Origin: Mitsuokella multacida DSM 20544 | GTDB taxonomy: Bacteria; Bacillota; Negativicutes; Selenomonadales; Selenomonadaceae | DNA length: 64,000 bases | NCBI RefSeq assembly: GCF_000155955.1 | Contig: NZ_GG697142.2 | Location: 95,646-159,645, forward strand | Reading direction: 5' to 3' | Shown: piece by piece, positions 17,734-23,157 of the stretch | How the letters are laid out: each line of letters starts with the position of its first letter | Numbering within the stretch: position 1 is the stretch's first letter | Program-made: the position numbers and the translations under genes | Notes under the pieces: generated by a model | Told to the model about the DNA's origin: nothing | The model's input: only the letters and a program-made list of their open reading frames with translations | Database searches by the model: none

Positions 17734-18111
17734 ATGGATGTCGAGAAGAAGCGGCAGCGGGAGCAGGAGACGGTGGCCAAGATCATCGAGATCTACTGCC
17801 ATGACCATCACGGCAAGCGCAGCGGGCTCTGTCCGAAGTGTGAGGAGCTCGCCCACTACGCAGAGGCGCGCATCGCCGCCTGCCCGCGCATGGAGGTCAA
17901 GAGCTTCTGCAGCGTCTGCCCGATACACTGCTACGCGCCGGCGCGGCGCCAAGAGATCCAGACGATCATGCGCTACGGCGGCCCGCGCATGCTCCTGCAT
18001 CACCCGCTCATGACCTTGCACCACATGATGCTGTCGTGGCAGATGCGCTTAGAGCGCTTTGCTTTTTTCCGCCACTCGCGCCAGTCGGACCGCAGCGTGA
18101 AGGTGAAGTGA
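17734..18111 (+). CDS. YgbA-type nitrosative-stress family protein
   Basis: 125 aa, cysteine-rich. The pattern IEIYCHDHHGKRSGLCPKCEELAHYAEARIAACP...FCSVCPIHCYAPARRQEI matches the nitrous-oxide-stimulated promoter/YgbA family. In enterobacteria, YgbA is NsrR-regulated and helps recovery from nitric-oxide stress. Seven or more Cys plus His suggest metal or cluster binding. It is a single gene between a terminator and the next promoter. An NsrR site was not identified. Confidence 0.82.
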   Translation: MDVEKKRQREQETVAKIIEIYCHDHHGKRSGLCPKCEELAHYAEARIAACPRMEVKSFCSVCPIHCYAPARRQEIQTIMRYGGPRMLLHHPLMTLHHMMLSWQMRLERFAFFRHSRQSDRSVKVK

Positions 18112-19054: not shown

Positions 19055-19095
19055 CAACAAAAATCCGCTACCTGCTAACAGATGCGGATGGAAAT
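19055..19095 (+). promoter_or_regulatory. paired AraC-type operator upstream of alpha-galactosidase
   Basis: Two direct half-sites begin CAACA (19055) and TAACA (19076), 21 bp apart (two helix turns), as is typical for AraC activators. The proximal half (CTAACAGATG, one variable base, GGATGGAAAT; 19075-19095) overlaps the -35. The same arrangement occurs at 21422-21462. Confidence 0.65.
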
Positions 19096-19117
19096 AAAGG
19101 GTAAAACCTCCTATAAT
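19089..19117 (+). promoter_or_regulatory. alpha-galactosidase promoter
   Basis: A poor -35 (TGGAAA, 19089-19094) and a perfect TATAAT (19112-19117), spacer 17. The weak -35 inside the operator fits a class II activator-dependent promoter. Confidence 0.65.
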
Positions 19118-19165
19118 AAGACTAAACGAATGAAAACGAGACAGTCTGATTTTAGGAGGTTTTTT
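19103..19165 (+). terminator. terminator-like hairpin containing -10 and ribosome binding site
   Basis: AAAACCTCCT (19103-19112) pairs with AGGAGGTTTT (19154-19163), with inner AAT/ATT and AGACT/AGTCT pairs, and T6 follows. The -10 lies in the 5' arm and the ribosome binding site in the 3' arm. RNA started at 19117+7 lacks the 5' arm, while read-through RNA would fold and stop. Confidence 0.55.
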
Positions 19166-19167
19166 CT

Positions 19168-21408
19168 ATGGGCATCTCTTTTGCGGCGGCGACTCAGCAG
19201 TTCCATCTCTACAACGACAGGATCAGCTATGTCATGAAGGTCCTGCGCGACGGCCATCTCGGCCAGCTCTATTTCGGCGCGCGCCTGCCGGAAGACCGCG
19301 ACTACGGGCACTTTGTCCACACGGATTACTACCGTCCGACGACGGCCTATGTCTTCGACAATGAGTACGGCTTCTCGCGCGAGCACCTGCGTCAGGAGTA
19401 CCCCTCGTATGGCACGACGGACTTCCGCGAGGGTGCGGTGGAGCTCGCGCAGCCGGACGGCAGCCACATCACGGACTTCTGCTACGTCTCGCATGAGATC
19501 GTCGCGGGCAAGCCGAAGCTGCCGGGTCTGCCGGCCACGTATGTGGAGGCGGACGACGAGGCGGATACGCTCCTCGTGCGGCTGCGCGACGAGAAGACGG
19601 GCGTCGAGCTCGTGCTCTCGTACACGATCTTCCACGACTTCGACGCGATTGCCCGCAATGCTTATTTTACCAACAAGGGCAGCGAGACCGTGGCGCTCAC
19701 GCGCGCGATGAGCCTCGCCATCGACCTTCCCGATGCGGACTACGACTTCGTGCAGTTCTCGGGCTGGTGGGGCCGCGAGCGCCAGAAAAGCGTCACGCAC
19801 CTGCGCCCCGGCATCCAGTCCATCGGCAGCCTGCGCGGCCAGTCGAGCCACGTCCACAATCCGTTCTTCATCCTCAAGCGCCCACAGGCAGACGAGCAGC
19901 AGGGCGAGGCCATCGGCTTCTCGCTCGTCTACAGTGGCAACTTCCTCGCGCAGGCAGAGGTCGACACCTTCGATGTCACGCGCGTGACGATGGGCATCCA
20001 TCCGCAGGAGTTTTGTTGGCAGCTTGCGCCGAACGATTCGTTCCAGACGCCGGAGGCCGTCATGGTCTGGTCGGACCACGGCCTCAACGGCATGAGCCAG
20101 AACTTCCACAAGCTCTATCGCACGCGCCTGGCGCGTGGTGTCTGGCGCGACAAGGTGCGCCCCATCCTCATCAACAACTGGGAGGCCACGTACTTCGACT
20201 TCGATGAGGAGAAGCTCGTGCGCATCGCCAAGACGGCGCATGATGTCGGTGTCGAGCTCTTCGTCCTCGACGACGGCTGGTTCTCCACGCGCTGCGGCGA
20301 GACGAGCGGCCTCGGCGACTGGTGGCCGAACACTGACCGCTTGCCGAACGGCATCACGGGCCTCGCCGAGCGCATCAACGCGCTCGGCATGAAGTTCGGC
20401 CTCTGGGTCGAGCTCGAGATGGTCAACAAAGACAGCGAGCTCTACCGCGCGCACCCCGACTGGATCCTGCACACGGAGGGCCGCCATGCTTCGCATGGCC
20501 GCAAGCAGTACGTGCTCGACTTCTCGCGCCCGGAAGTCGTCGACTACATCCACGACTCCATCTACAAGGTCCTGAGCACGGCGAAAGTCGACTACATCAA
20601 GTGGGACATGAACCGCAGCATCACGGAGTGCGGCTCGGCCGGCTGGGGCCCGGAGCATCAGGGCGAGATCTTCCACCGCTACATCCTCGGTGTCTACAGC
20701 CTCTACGAGCGCCTGACGCATGAGTTCCCGAACATCCTGTTCGAGTCCTGCGCATCAGGCGGCGGCCGCTTCGACCCGGGCATGTTCTACTATGCGCCGC
20801 AGTGCTGGACGAGTGATGACTCCGACGGCGGCGAGCGCCTGCGCATCCAGTACGGCACGAGCTACGCTTACCCAGTGTCGTTCATGGGCTCGCACGTCTC
20901 GATCGCGCCGAACCATCAGATCTTCCGCGAGACGAGCCTCAAGCTGCGCGGCGATGTCGCTTACTTCGGCACGTTCGGCTACGAGCTCGACCTCGGCAAG
21001 CTCTCGGCCAAGGAGCTCGAGGAGGTCCGCGAGCAGATCCGCTTCATGAAGAAGTACCGCAAGCTGATCCAGCAGGGGACGTTCTACCGCCTCAAGGACC
21101 CGTTCACAGGCAACGTCGCGGCCTGGATGGTCGTCTCGGATGACCGCCGTCAGGCCATCGTCGGCTACTACAAGATGCTCGCGCATCCCTGCACGCCGTA
21201 CACGTGGATGAAGCTCGCCGGCCTCGATGAGACGGCCGACTACAAGGTCCGCATCGATGACCATGAAGAGATGGGCGTGTTCACGGGCGCCGAGCTCATG
21301 CGCGCCGGCCTCGACACGACGGACTTCTCGGCTGGCGAGCAGAGCCACGAAGAAGGCAAGCACTGCTCGGACTTCTGGTCGCGCCTCTTCGTTCTTTCGG
21401 CAGAGTGA
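19168..21408 (+). CDS. alpha-galactosidase, GH36
   Basis: 746 aa, the full length for bacterial GH36. It releases galactose from melibiose, raffinose and related sugars. There is no signal peptide, so it is cytoplasmic. The nucleophile is Asp480 in YIKWDMNR, and the acid/base is an Asp of WTSDDSDGGERL near residue 550. DDGWF and the N-terminal beta-sandwich are also typical. Released galactose would enter the galK-galE-galT pathway about 10 kb upstream. Expression is likely activated by the AraC regulator at 22261. No dedicated sugar permease is adjacent. Confidence 0.96.
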   Translation: MGISFAAATQQFHLYNDRISYVMKVLRDGHLGQLYFGARLPEDRDYGHFVHTDYYRPTTAYVFDNEYGFSREHLRQEYPSYGTTDFREGAVELAQPDGSHITDFCYVSHEIVAGKPKLPGLPATYVEADDEADTLLVRLRDEKTGVELVLSYTIFHDFDAIARNAYFTNKGSETVALTRAMSLAIDLPDADYDFVQFSGWWGRERQKSVTHLRPGIQSIGSLRGQSSHVHNPFFILKRPQADEQQGEAIGFSLVYSGNFLAQAEVDTFDVTRVTMGIHPQEFCWQLAPNDSFQTPEAVMVWSDHGLNGMSQNFHKLYRTRLARGVWRDKVRPILINNWEATYFDFDEEKLVRIAKTAHDVGVELFVLDDGWFSTRCGETSGLGDWWPNTDRLPNGITGLAERINALGMKFGLWVELEMVNKDSELYRAHPDWILHTEGRHASHGRKQYVLDFSRPEVVDYIHDSIYKVLSTAKVDYIKWDMNRSITECGSAGWGPEHQGEIFHRYILGVYSLYERLTHEFPNILFESCASGGGRFDPGMFYYAPQCWTSDDSDGGERLRIQYGTSYAYPVSFMGSHVSIAPNHQIFRETSLKLRGDVAYFGTFGYELDLGKLSAKELEEVREQIRFMKKYRKLIQQGTFYRLKDPFTGNVAAWMVVSDDRRQAIVGYYKMLAHPCTPYTWMKLAGLDETADYKVRIDDHEEMGVFTGAELMRAGLDTTDFSAGEQSHEEGKHCSDFWSRLFVLSAE

Positions 21409-21421
21409 GGTTTCAACCTGT

Positions 21422-21462
21422 CAACAAATTTCCGTGAACACCTAACAGATGAGGATGGAAAT
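21422..21462 (+). promoter_or_regulatory. paired AraC-type operator upstream of the YczE-like gene
   Basis: CAACA at 21422 and TAACA at 21443 are again 21 bp apart. The proximal 21 bp (21442-21462) match the copy at 19075 in 20 of 21 positions, and the distal half shares CAACAAA and TCCG. Confidence 0.65.
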
Positions 21463-21484
21463 GCGCCGTCAGAACGACTACAAT
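21456..21484 (+). promoter_or_regulatory. promoter of the YczE-like gene
   Basis: TGGAAA at 21456-21461 and TACAAT at 21479-21484, spacer 17. The -35, spacer and operator placement are the same as at the alpha-galactosidase promoter. Confidence 0.6.
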
Positions 21485-22218: not shown

Positions 22219-22239
22219 ACTTCCTTGAACTTCTATGAT

Positions 22240-22273
22240 AAAAAAGTCCTGACGACTGTGTCAGGACTTTTTT
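22240..22273. terminator. bidirectional terminator, convergent genes
   Basis: AAAAGTCCTGAC pairs with GTCAGGACTTTT around GACTGT, with T6 on the plus side and A6 on the other. The 3' arm includes the stop codon of the minus-strand AraC gene. Confidence 0.9.
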
Positions 22274-23157
22274 GCATGCTTTTTGCCAGTTGCTTCAGCT
22301 GAGGAAGGCGGTTCTGTCGCTTGCAGGTAGGAGCTCTGCTGTTGACGACGATAGGCGGTGGGGGTCATGCCGGCCTTGCGCAGGAAGGCGCGCTGGAAGG
22401 AGTCGCTCTTGGCGTAGCCGCACGAGTAGGCAATCGACTCGACGGAGAAGGTCGTCGTCTCGAGCAGATGCCTGGCCTTGGTGAGGCGGCAGTTCTGGAT
22501 GTACTCGTGGGGCGAGCAGTGCAGGTAGCGCTTGAAGAGCGTCGTCACATAACTGCGGTTGAGGTTCATGTAGTCGGCCAGTTCCTGCACGGTGAAGGGC
22601 TCCTCGAGATGCGTGCGGATGAAGTTCGTCATGTGTGAGATGTAGGCGTTGTTGTCGGCGGGCGGCAGCAGGTCGCGCTGCGCCTCGGCGAGCACGGAGA
22701 GGAACTGCATCAGCAGGCCGAGGCGGTAGTAGCGGCCTGAAAGCGTGAAGCTGTTGTGCGCGAGCATGTCCTGCACATAGGCGGCGAGCTTTGCGCCCTG
22801 TTCTTTGGTACAGGTGTAGATGGGATCCGCTTGGCTGAGCCTGAGCGAGGCGATGATCTCTGCGGCACGGCTGCCGTTGAAGGCCACCCAGATGTAGGTC
22901 CAGGGCTCCTTCGCATCGCTCTCATACGTCGTCTGGTAGTCCGGCTCGATCAGGAAGCCCTGTCCCGCGTGCAGGCAGTACGTGTGCTGATTGGCTTGGA
23001 ATGTTCCCTTGCCTGCGAGGATGAAGTGGATCAGGTGATAGGAGCGAACGGCCGGTCCGTAGCGATGGCCGGGCCCCGTGACCGAATGGCCGAATGTCGT
23101 CAGGAAGAGATCGCTCTCTCCCGCTGGGGGCACGTTGATCGACTGCATATCTTCCAT
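22261..23157 (-). CDS. AraC-family transcriptional activator
   Basis: 298 aa. The N-terminal cupin sensor (residues ~20-150; YHLIHFILAGKGTFQANQHTYCLHAGQGFLIEPDYQTTYESD) precedes a C-terminal double HTH (YMNLNRSYVTTLFKRYLHCSPHEYIQNCRLTKARHLLETTTFSVESIAYSCGYAKSDSFQRAFLRKAGMTPTAYRR). The layout matches MsmR/RafR-type regulators of alpha-galactoside genes. It is the likely activator for the two 21-bp-spaced operators in front of its neighbours (inference). AGGAGG precedes the start. Confidence 0.9.
   Translation of the reverse strand: MEDMQSINVPPAGESDLFLTTFGHSVTGPGHRYGPAVRSYHLIHFILAGKGTFQANQHTYCLHAGQGFLIEPDYQTTYESDAKEPWTYIWVAFNGSRAAEIIASLRLSQADPIYTCTKEQGAKLAAYVQDMLAHNSFTLSGRYYRLGLLMQFLSVLAEAQRDLLPPADNNAYISHMTNFIRTHLEEPFTVQELADYMNLNRSYVTTLFKRYLHCSPHEYIQNCRLTKARHLLETTTFSVESIAYSCGYAKSDSFQRAFLRKAGMTPTAYRRQQQSSYLQATEPPSSAEATGKKHAKKS

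Follow-up and report, generated by a model that had tools for sequence, protein, structure and literature searches.

A candidate AraC-type operator shared by an alpha-galactosidase gene and a neighboring yczE-like membrane-protein gene in Mitsuokella multacida

Introduction

Why should a gene for a membrane protein, of a family with no settled function, carry what looks like a copy of the operator of an alpha-galactosidase gene? The question is raised by a locus within the 64,000 nucleotides of Mitsuokella multacida DSM 20544 DNA analyzed here (the window), where aga, a yczE-like gene and an araC-family gene lie side by side (Table 1). E. coli AraC and MelR are activators that combine cupin and double helix-turn-helix domains and work by class II activation. 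Class II operators of the AraC type follow a spacing rule, namely two direct repeats about 21 bp apart with the proximal one reaching −35, and both AraC at araI1–I2 and MelR conform to it. A previous inspection of the window (the sequence-only reading) proposed that aga and yczE share a duplicated 41-bp operator-promoter of this type, that this predicts a small alpha-galactoside regulon, with an AraC regulator encoded alongside, and that the membrane protein is thereby tied to sugar use.

Results

Genes of the locus

The aga product contains the PF02065 Melibiase catalytic domain together with PF16875 and PF16874, the composition that defines membership in GH36. The regulator has the C-terminal double helix-turn-helix of the AraC/XylS family (HTH_18, E = 8.8e-24, and HTH_AraC in two stretches) as well as an N-terminal AraC_binding domain (E = 5.2e-21) of the sugar-sensing type. 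On the + strand, no terminator-like site was found between aga and yczE, so that read-through from the first gene into the second is possible. Further upstream, at 17734–18111 of the window, lies a gene for a protein of the YgbA-type "nitrous oxide-stimulated promoter" family; between it and aga is a Cof-type HAD phosphatase gene.

Table 1. Features of the aga–yczE–araC locus (window coordinates)
Feature	Position	Strand	Remarks
Candidate AraC-type operator of aga	19055..19095	+	Half-sites CAACA 19055-19059 and TAACA 19076-19080, seen in sequence
−10 box TATAAT, aga promoter	19112..19117	+	Starts 36 bp past the start of the second half-site; weak −35-like TGGAAA 19089-19094
aga, GH36 alpha-galactosidase, 746 aa	19168..21408	+	Pfam Melibiase, GH36 N- and C-terminal domains
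Candidate AraC-type operator of yczE	21422..21462	+	Half-sites CAACA 21422-21426 and TAACA 21443-21447; 33/41 identity with the aga operator
−10 box TACAAT, yczE promoter	21479..21484	+	Weak −35-like TGGAAA 21456-21461
yczE-like membrane-protein gene, 214 aa	21574..22218	+	NCBIfam NF052291, E = 6e-23, under the curated cut-off
Terminator-like hairpin between converging yczE and araC	22239..22274	.	Sequence
araC-family regulator gene, 298 aa	22261..23157	-	Pfam AraC_binding, HTH_18, HTH_AraC

Two copies of a 41-bp site

The two repeats lie where they had been reported. In each, the AACA half-sites are spaced by 21 bp, and at both promoters 36 bp separate the start of the second half-site from that of the −10 box. 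Since the half-sites are direct repeats at this spacing and the proximal one reaches −35, the arrangement has the layout of a class II operator. Identity between the sites is concentrated in the proximal part, where 20 of 21 positions agree, as had been claimed, compared with 13 of 20 in the distal part. The reported combination of TGGAAA with a 17-bp spacer to the −10 box is also present in both (19089–19117 with TATAAT and 21456–21484 with TACAAT).

With just two copies in the genome, the resemblance between the promoters could in principle be accidental. In 200 first-order Markov shuffles, searched on one strand, the best match to the aga 41-mer ranged from 21 to 29 identical positions, and the 33 of 41 observed for the yczE site, above the shuffle maximum, exclude chance resemblance. 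The next-best match in the window reaches 23 of 41, and the yczE site has no mismatch to the two-half-site pattern drawn from both sites. Together with conservation of the site at the corresponding place in promoters of a second genus (below), this leaves accident with almost no claim to belief. The pair may have arisen through the copying of a site or through convergence under one regulator.

Two details of the earlier description have to be revised. TGGAAA had been taken for a shared, poor −35 element, but it is not conserved: the aga promoter of a second genome of the same genus (G001) has TGGTAC at the corresponding place, and hence TGGAAA is probably not a selected −35. The suggested search motif, YAACARAWK repeated at 21-bp spacing, misses the aga site, so that a genome search with it returns the yczE site only. 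The proximal half alone, at up to three mismatches, matches 26 places in the own genome versus 22 for the reversed pattern, which is the control level.

The site is conserved together with the AraC regulator

At up to three mismatches, the two-half-site pattern was found at two places in the own genome and at one in G001 among 60 genomes scanned; the remaining 58 gave none, nor did the reversed pattern. For the exact motif, the two own-genome copies thus support the idea of a small regulon. In G001, AraC is 75% and aga 95% identical to those of the window, and the gene order is HAD phosphatase, aga, araC (converging) and panS, without yczE. Its aga promoter retains both half-sites and the −10 box while nearby letters differ. 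In genus g21, where AraC is 54–57% identical, two genomes (G103 and G107) carry the site upstream of aga, the latter with one change in the second half-site.

A pattern built from these five sites (two own, G001, G103 and G107) was then run over 189 genomes of the family, again at up to three mismatches. It matched six places in five genomes, that is, its five source sites and one new site, in G047. The new site precedes a run of genes for a cytidylate-kinase-like protein, an MFS_2 transporter and aga; an AraC ortholog converges on the run, and lacZ-, galK- and galT-like genes lie beyond. Each of the six places is an aga locus, and the AraC encoded next to it is at least 54% identical to that of the window. 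Because the reversed pattern gave three matches in the same 189 genomes, single matches alone prove little. In G037, too, where the AraC protein is just 36% identical, aga is preceded by an exact pair in the 21/36 layout. Non-conservation of the repeats in relatives had been named as grounds for rejecting the proposal; instead, they recur in another species and another genus, which argues for the predicted pairing of operator and AraC.

A wider search of named genomes with the AraC protein returned 13 loci at 34–43% identity, titled Lachnospiraceae, Eisenbergiella, Blautia, Hungatella, Eubacteriales or Clostridiales. In nine of them (37–43%) the regulator adjoins galK, with galT recognized after galK in six of the nine; in three (L110, L111 and L114) it adjoins aga and ABC-transporter genes, and in L112 another AraC gene and a binding-protein gene. 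The exact YAACA-N16-YAACA pair is present in all nine galK upstream regions and in one of the three ABC operons (L114). Across 644 upstream regions of 250 bp each, from the window and the fetched loci, the pair occurs in 14 (galK, nine; aga, four; the aga-linked ABC operon of L114, one), a count to be read in light of the fact that the loci were selected for holding such proteins and that the nine galK loci came from one similarity search. Two sites fall outside the 14: that of yczE, where the simple gene caller took a longer reverse frame, and that of G047, which lies just beyond 250 bp. The half-site spacing shared with these distant relatives at galactose genes further suggests that operator and regulator belong together.

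Loci without the exact pair

The pair does not accompany every close relative of the regulator. Seven g12 genomes encode an AraC 54–56% identical to that of the window, and the exact pair is absent from the gap between regulator and operon. At the six g12 loci that are sufficiently long, the gene for an MFS_2 transporter lies beside that of the regulator, accompanied, to the extent that the contigs cover them, by galK, epimerase, galT, lacZ, aga and galM genes (galK unrecognized in L186). Pairs with one half-site mismatch, three in all, occur in mutually similar DNA of L187, L188 and L192, away from the regulator–operon gap. G023 has the layout with one mismatch in each half-site, whereas the exact pair is missing at G216, G048, G009, L110 and L111, and before the binding-protein gene of L112. 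Either the site has drifted in these lineages or their regulators read another sequence.

A cytidylate-kinase-like gene recurs in first position of gal/aga runs, by an AraC gene or operator (L120, 5616–6218, PF13189; L186, 5523–6134; L189, 4010–4621; L190, 9381–9992; L191, 1905–2516).

The seven genomes with a close AraC and no exact pair could mean that the repeats are bound by another regulator while the adjacent AraC acts elsewhere, the more so as the own genome has 12 further AraC-like matches, any of which might read such sites. The nearest AraC paralogue of the own genome (43%) adjoins genes for a sodium:sulfate-type symporter and an MFS protein, showing that the AraC subfamily is not galactose-only. 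That explanation nevertheless has to account for the adjacent AraC, at least 54% identical, at all six operator matches of the 189-genome scan, and for the recurrence of the pair at other galactose genes beside distant relatives of this AraC. We regard it as improbable and take the adjacent AraC to be the probable ligand of both sites.

Family and structure of the YczE-like protein

The assignment of the membrane protein to the YczE family stands in part. It matches the NCBIfam equivalog model for YczE, NF052291, over its length (residues 6–192), but the score of 81.6 bits is below the curated cut-off of 205, so the protein is YczE-like rather than a certified YczE. A Pfam search at 1e-3 returned nothing, YitT and DUF6198 included; the relative in G037 matches YitT_membrane (E = 4e-6) and DUF6198 (E = 5e-6).

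An AlphaFold2 model built with 26 aligned relatives (mean pLDDT 90, pTM 0.83) has eight helices, arranged as two sets of long, short, long, long. Gly 31, Asp 33, Gly 131 and Asp 136, which are invariant in the alignment, are located near the starts of the short helices. Foldseek detected no match among solved structures at E 1e-3. In a comparison with TRIC-type channels, the best Z-score was 4.7 (rmsd 3.5 over 114 aligned residues), with other folds close below; neither search gave a convincing counterpart among solved structures. The model is compatible with a small transporter or channel but is proof of neither.

YczE-like genes next to aga

How typical is the association of yczE with aga? 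In the 189 family genomes, YczE relatives (E 1e-20 or better) occupy 32 places in 30 genomes, and aga relatives (E 1e-100) are found in 78. A YczE-like gene lies by aga in four genera, represented by the own genome (165 bp apart), G145 (1 bp), G216 (next gene) and G037 (a Gfo/Idh-type gene in between); 28 of the 32 YczE places are not by aga. An aga at least 60% identical to that of the window occurs in 12 genomes, one of which (G169) is split over contig ends, and four of the 12 have a neighboring yczE. In a tree of 33 YczE sequences, the proteins of the own genome, G145 and G172 form one clade and that of G216 groups with G035, while the G037 protein stands apart on a long branch and its placement is unsure. 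Judging from this tree, at least two YczE lineages, perhaps three, have come to adjoin aga. In G172, whose YczE belongs to the same clade as the window's protein, an aldose 1-epimerase gene comes after yczE.

Outside the family, 71 YczE places were listed from 398 genomes of the phylum. Among the best 60, none had aga, galK, galT, lacZ, galM or MFS_2 detectable by BLAST within about 4 kb, with the proviso that the script recognized no YczE gene at five of these loci and that some contigs are short. One of them, L195, encodes a protein with weak similarity (28%) to a sugar-type binding protein. The link between YczE and aga is therefore a local, repeated association and not a family rule. The aga neighborhoods in three other genera independently support the proposed role of the membrane protein in sugar use, and the 60 outside-family loci count against it.

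This distribution bears on a further explanation, in which the operators are real and yczE is a passenger: its promoter would have been copied or captured from aga, and the protein would be unrelated to galactoside use. The sister species G001, which has aga, araC and operator without this yczE, fits such a history, as do the absence of galactoside genes from the 60 outside-family loci and the many family YczE places away from aga. On the other hand, a passenger would hardly be expected by aga in three further genera, drawn from at least two YczE lineages, at a distance of 1 bp in G145, or, in the same-clade relative of G172, ahead of an aldose 1-epimerase gene. We consider a passenger role rather unlikely, and a function in galactoside use is the reading pursued below.

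Among the aga loci inspected, a recognized transporter gene neighbors aga at six (G047, G103, G107, L110, L111 and L114), a YczE-like gene at four (the own genome, G145, G216 and G037, the last with an MFS gene some 4 kb further off), and neither at four others (G001, G018, G023 and G009). This is as expected if YczE can replace a transporter, although the numbers are too small for a test.

Several other YczE-like neighborhoods deserve mention. In G216, the AraC relative beside aga–yczE (G216:C8:79704-80483, L135) contains in-frame stops, perhaps the mark of a regulator in decay. The genus of the window has another YczE-like gene that likewise adjoins an AraC-family gene (G000:C5:71746-72351, L116; G001:C1:407923-408519, L118). 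In three g12 genomes, what precedes the yczE-like gene is a gene for a spermidine-synthase-like protein, not a sugar gene (L128, 2546–4132; L129, 6205–7794; L131, 8172–9761; Pfam for L128 only).

Discussion

The best reading of the locus, which we hold to be likely on the comparative evidence, is that both sites are class II activator operators through which the adjacent AraC protein switches on aga and yczE. AraC would sense an alpha-galactoside or galactose and bind as a dimer to the direct repeat of half-sites with its 21-bp spacing. With the proximal half-site reaching the −35 position, it would recruit RNA polymerase to promoters whose −10 box is good but whose −35 is poor, that is, act by class II activation rather than repression. 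This would switch on aga, and yczE through its own promoter, perhaps with read-through from aga in addition. YczE, in turn, may be the membrane transporter of a substrate of alpha-galactoside breakdown or of one of its products. That YczE-like proteins at aga loci are permeases, or product exporters, for alpha-galactosides or their sugars is a guess to which we give modest odds.

The predicted switch resembles those of E. coli AraC and MelR in the spacing of the repeats, in the proximal repeat at −35 and in a good −10 combined with a poor −35, unconserved here. It differs from them in the half-site letters, AACA, and AraC itself serves other sugars.

The closest documented parallel is RafR of Streptococcus pneumoniae, an AraC/XylS regulator located beside aga that controls aga and the raf transporter genes; exchange of the rafR allele alters aga expression on raffinose (PMC6336424). 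Unlike the unit described here, that of S. pneumoniae has an ABC transporter, and the available text of the report does not mention YczE (PMC6336424). In another setting, YczE genes have been described under neighboring MocR regulators, with metabolite transport suggested and the function called unknown (PMC4944035). Control of yczE by a neighboring regulator, as predicted here, is common to both cases, but there the regulator is MocR instead of AraC, and amino acids instead of galactosides were suggested (PMC4944035). In Oenococcus oeni, a protein named Ycze, whose gene shares a conserved cluster with those for fructokinase and mannitol dehydrogenase, has been named as a candidate sugar (fructose) permease, with a role called unclear (PMC5131533). 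It is likened to the window's protein by name alone, and its presumed sugar is fructose rather than galactosides (PMC5131533). Among the papers listed by literature searches, none dealt with the operator described here, or with YczE together with alpha-galactosidase.

Regulator and operator represent a known type of switch, and the new part is the link between YczE and galactosides. The analysis defines an operator layout, YAACA-N16-YAACA with the second half-site 36 bp before the −10 box, for a galactose/alpha-galactoside group of AraC regulators in Negativicutes-like and clostridial bacteria. If the proposed reading is true, a membrane-protein family without a settled function would acquire a transport role, with its gene at this locus controlled from a separate copy of the alpha-galactosidase operator. 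The shared operator makes the function of YczE-like proteins directly testable.
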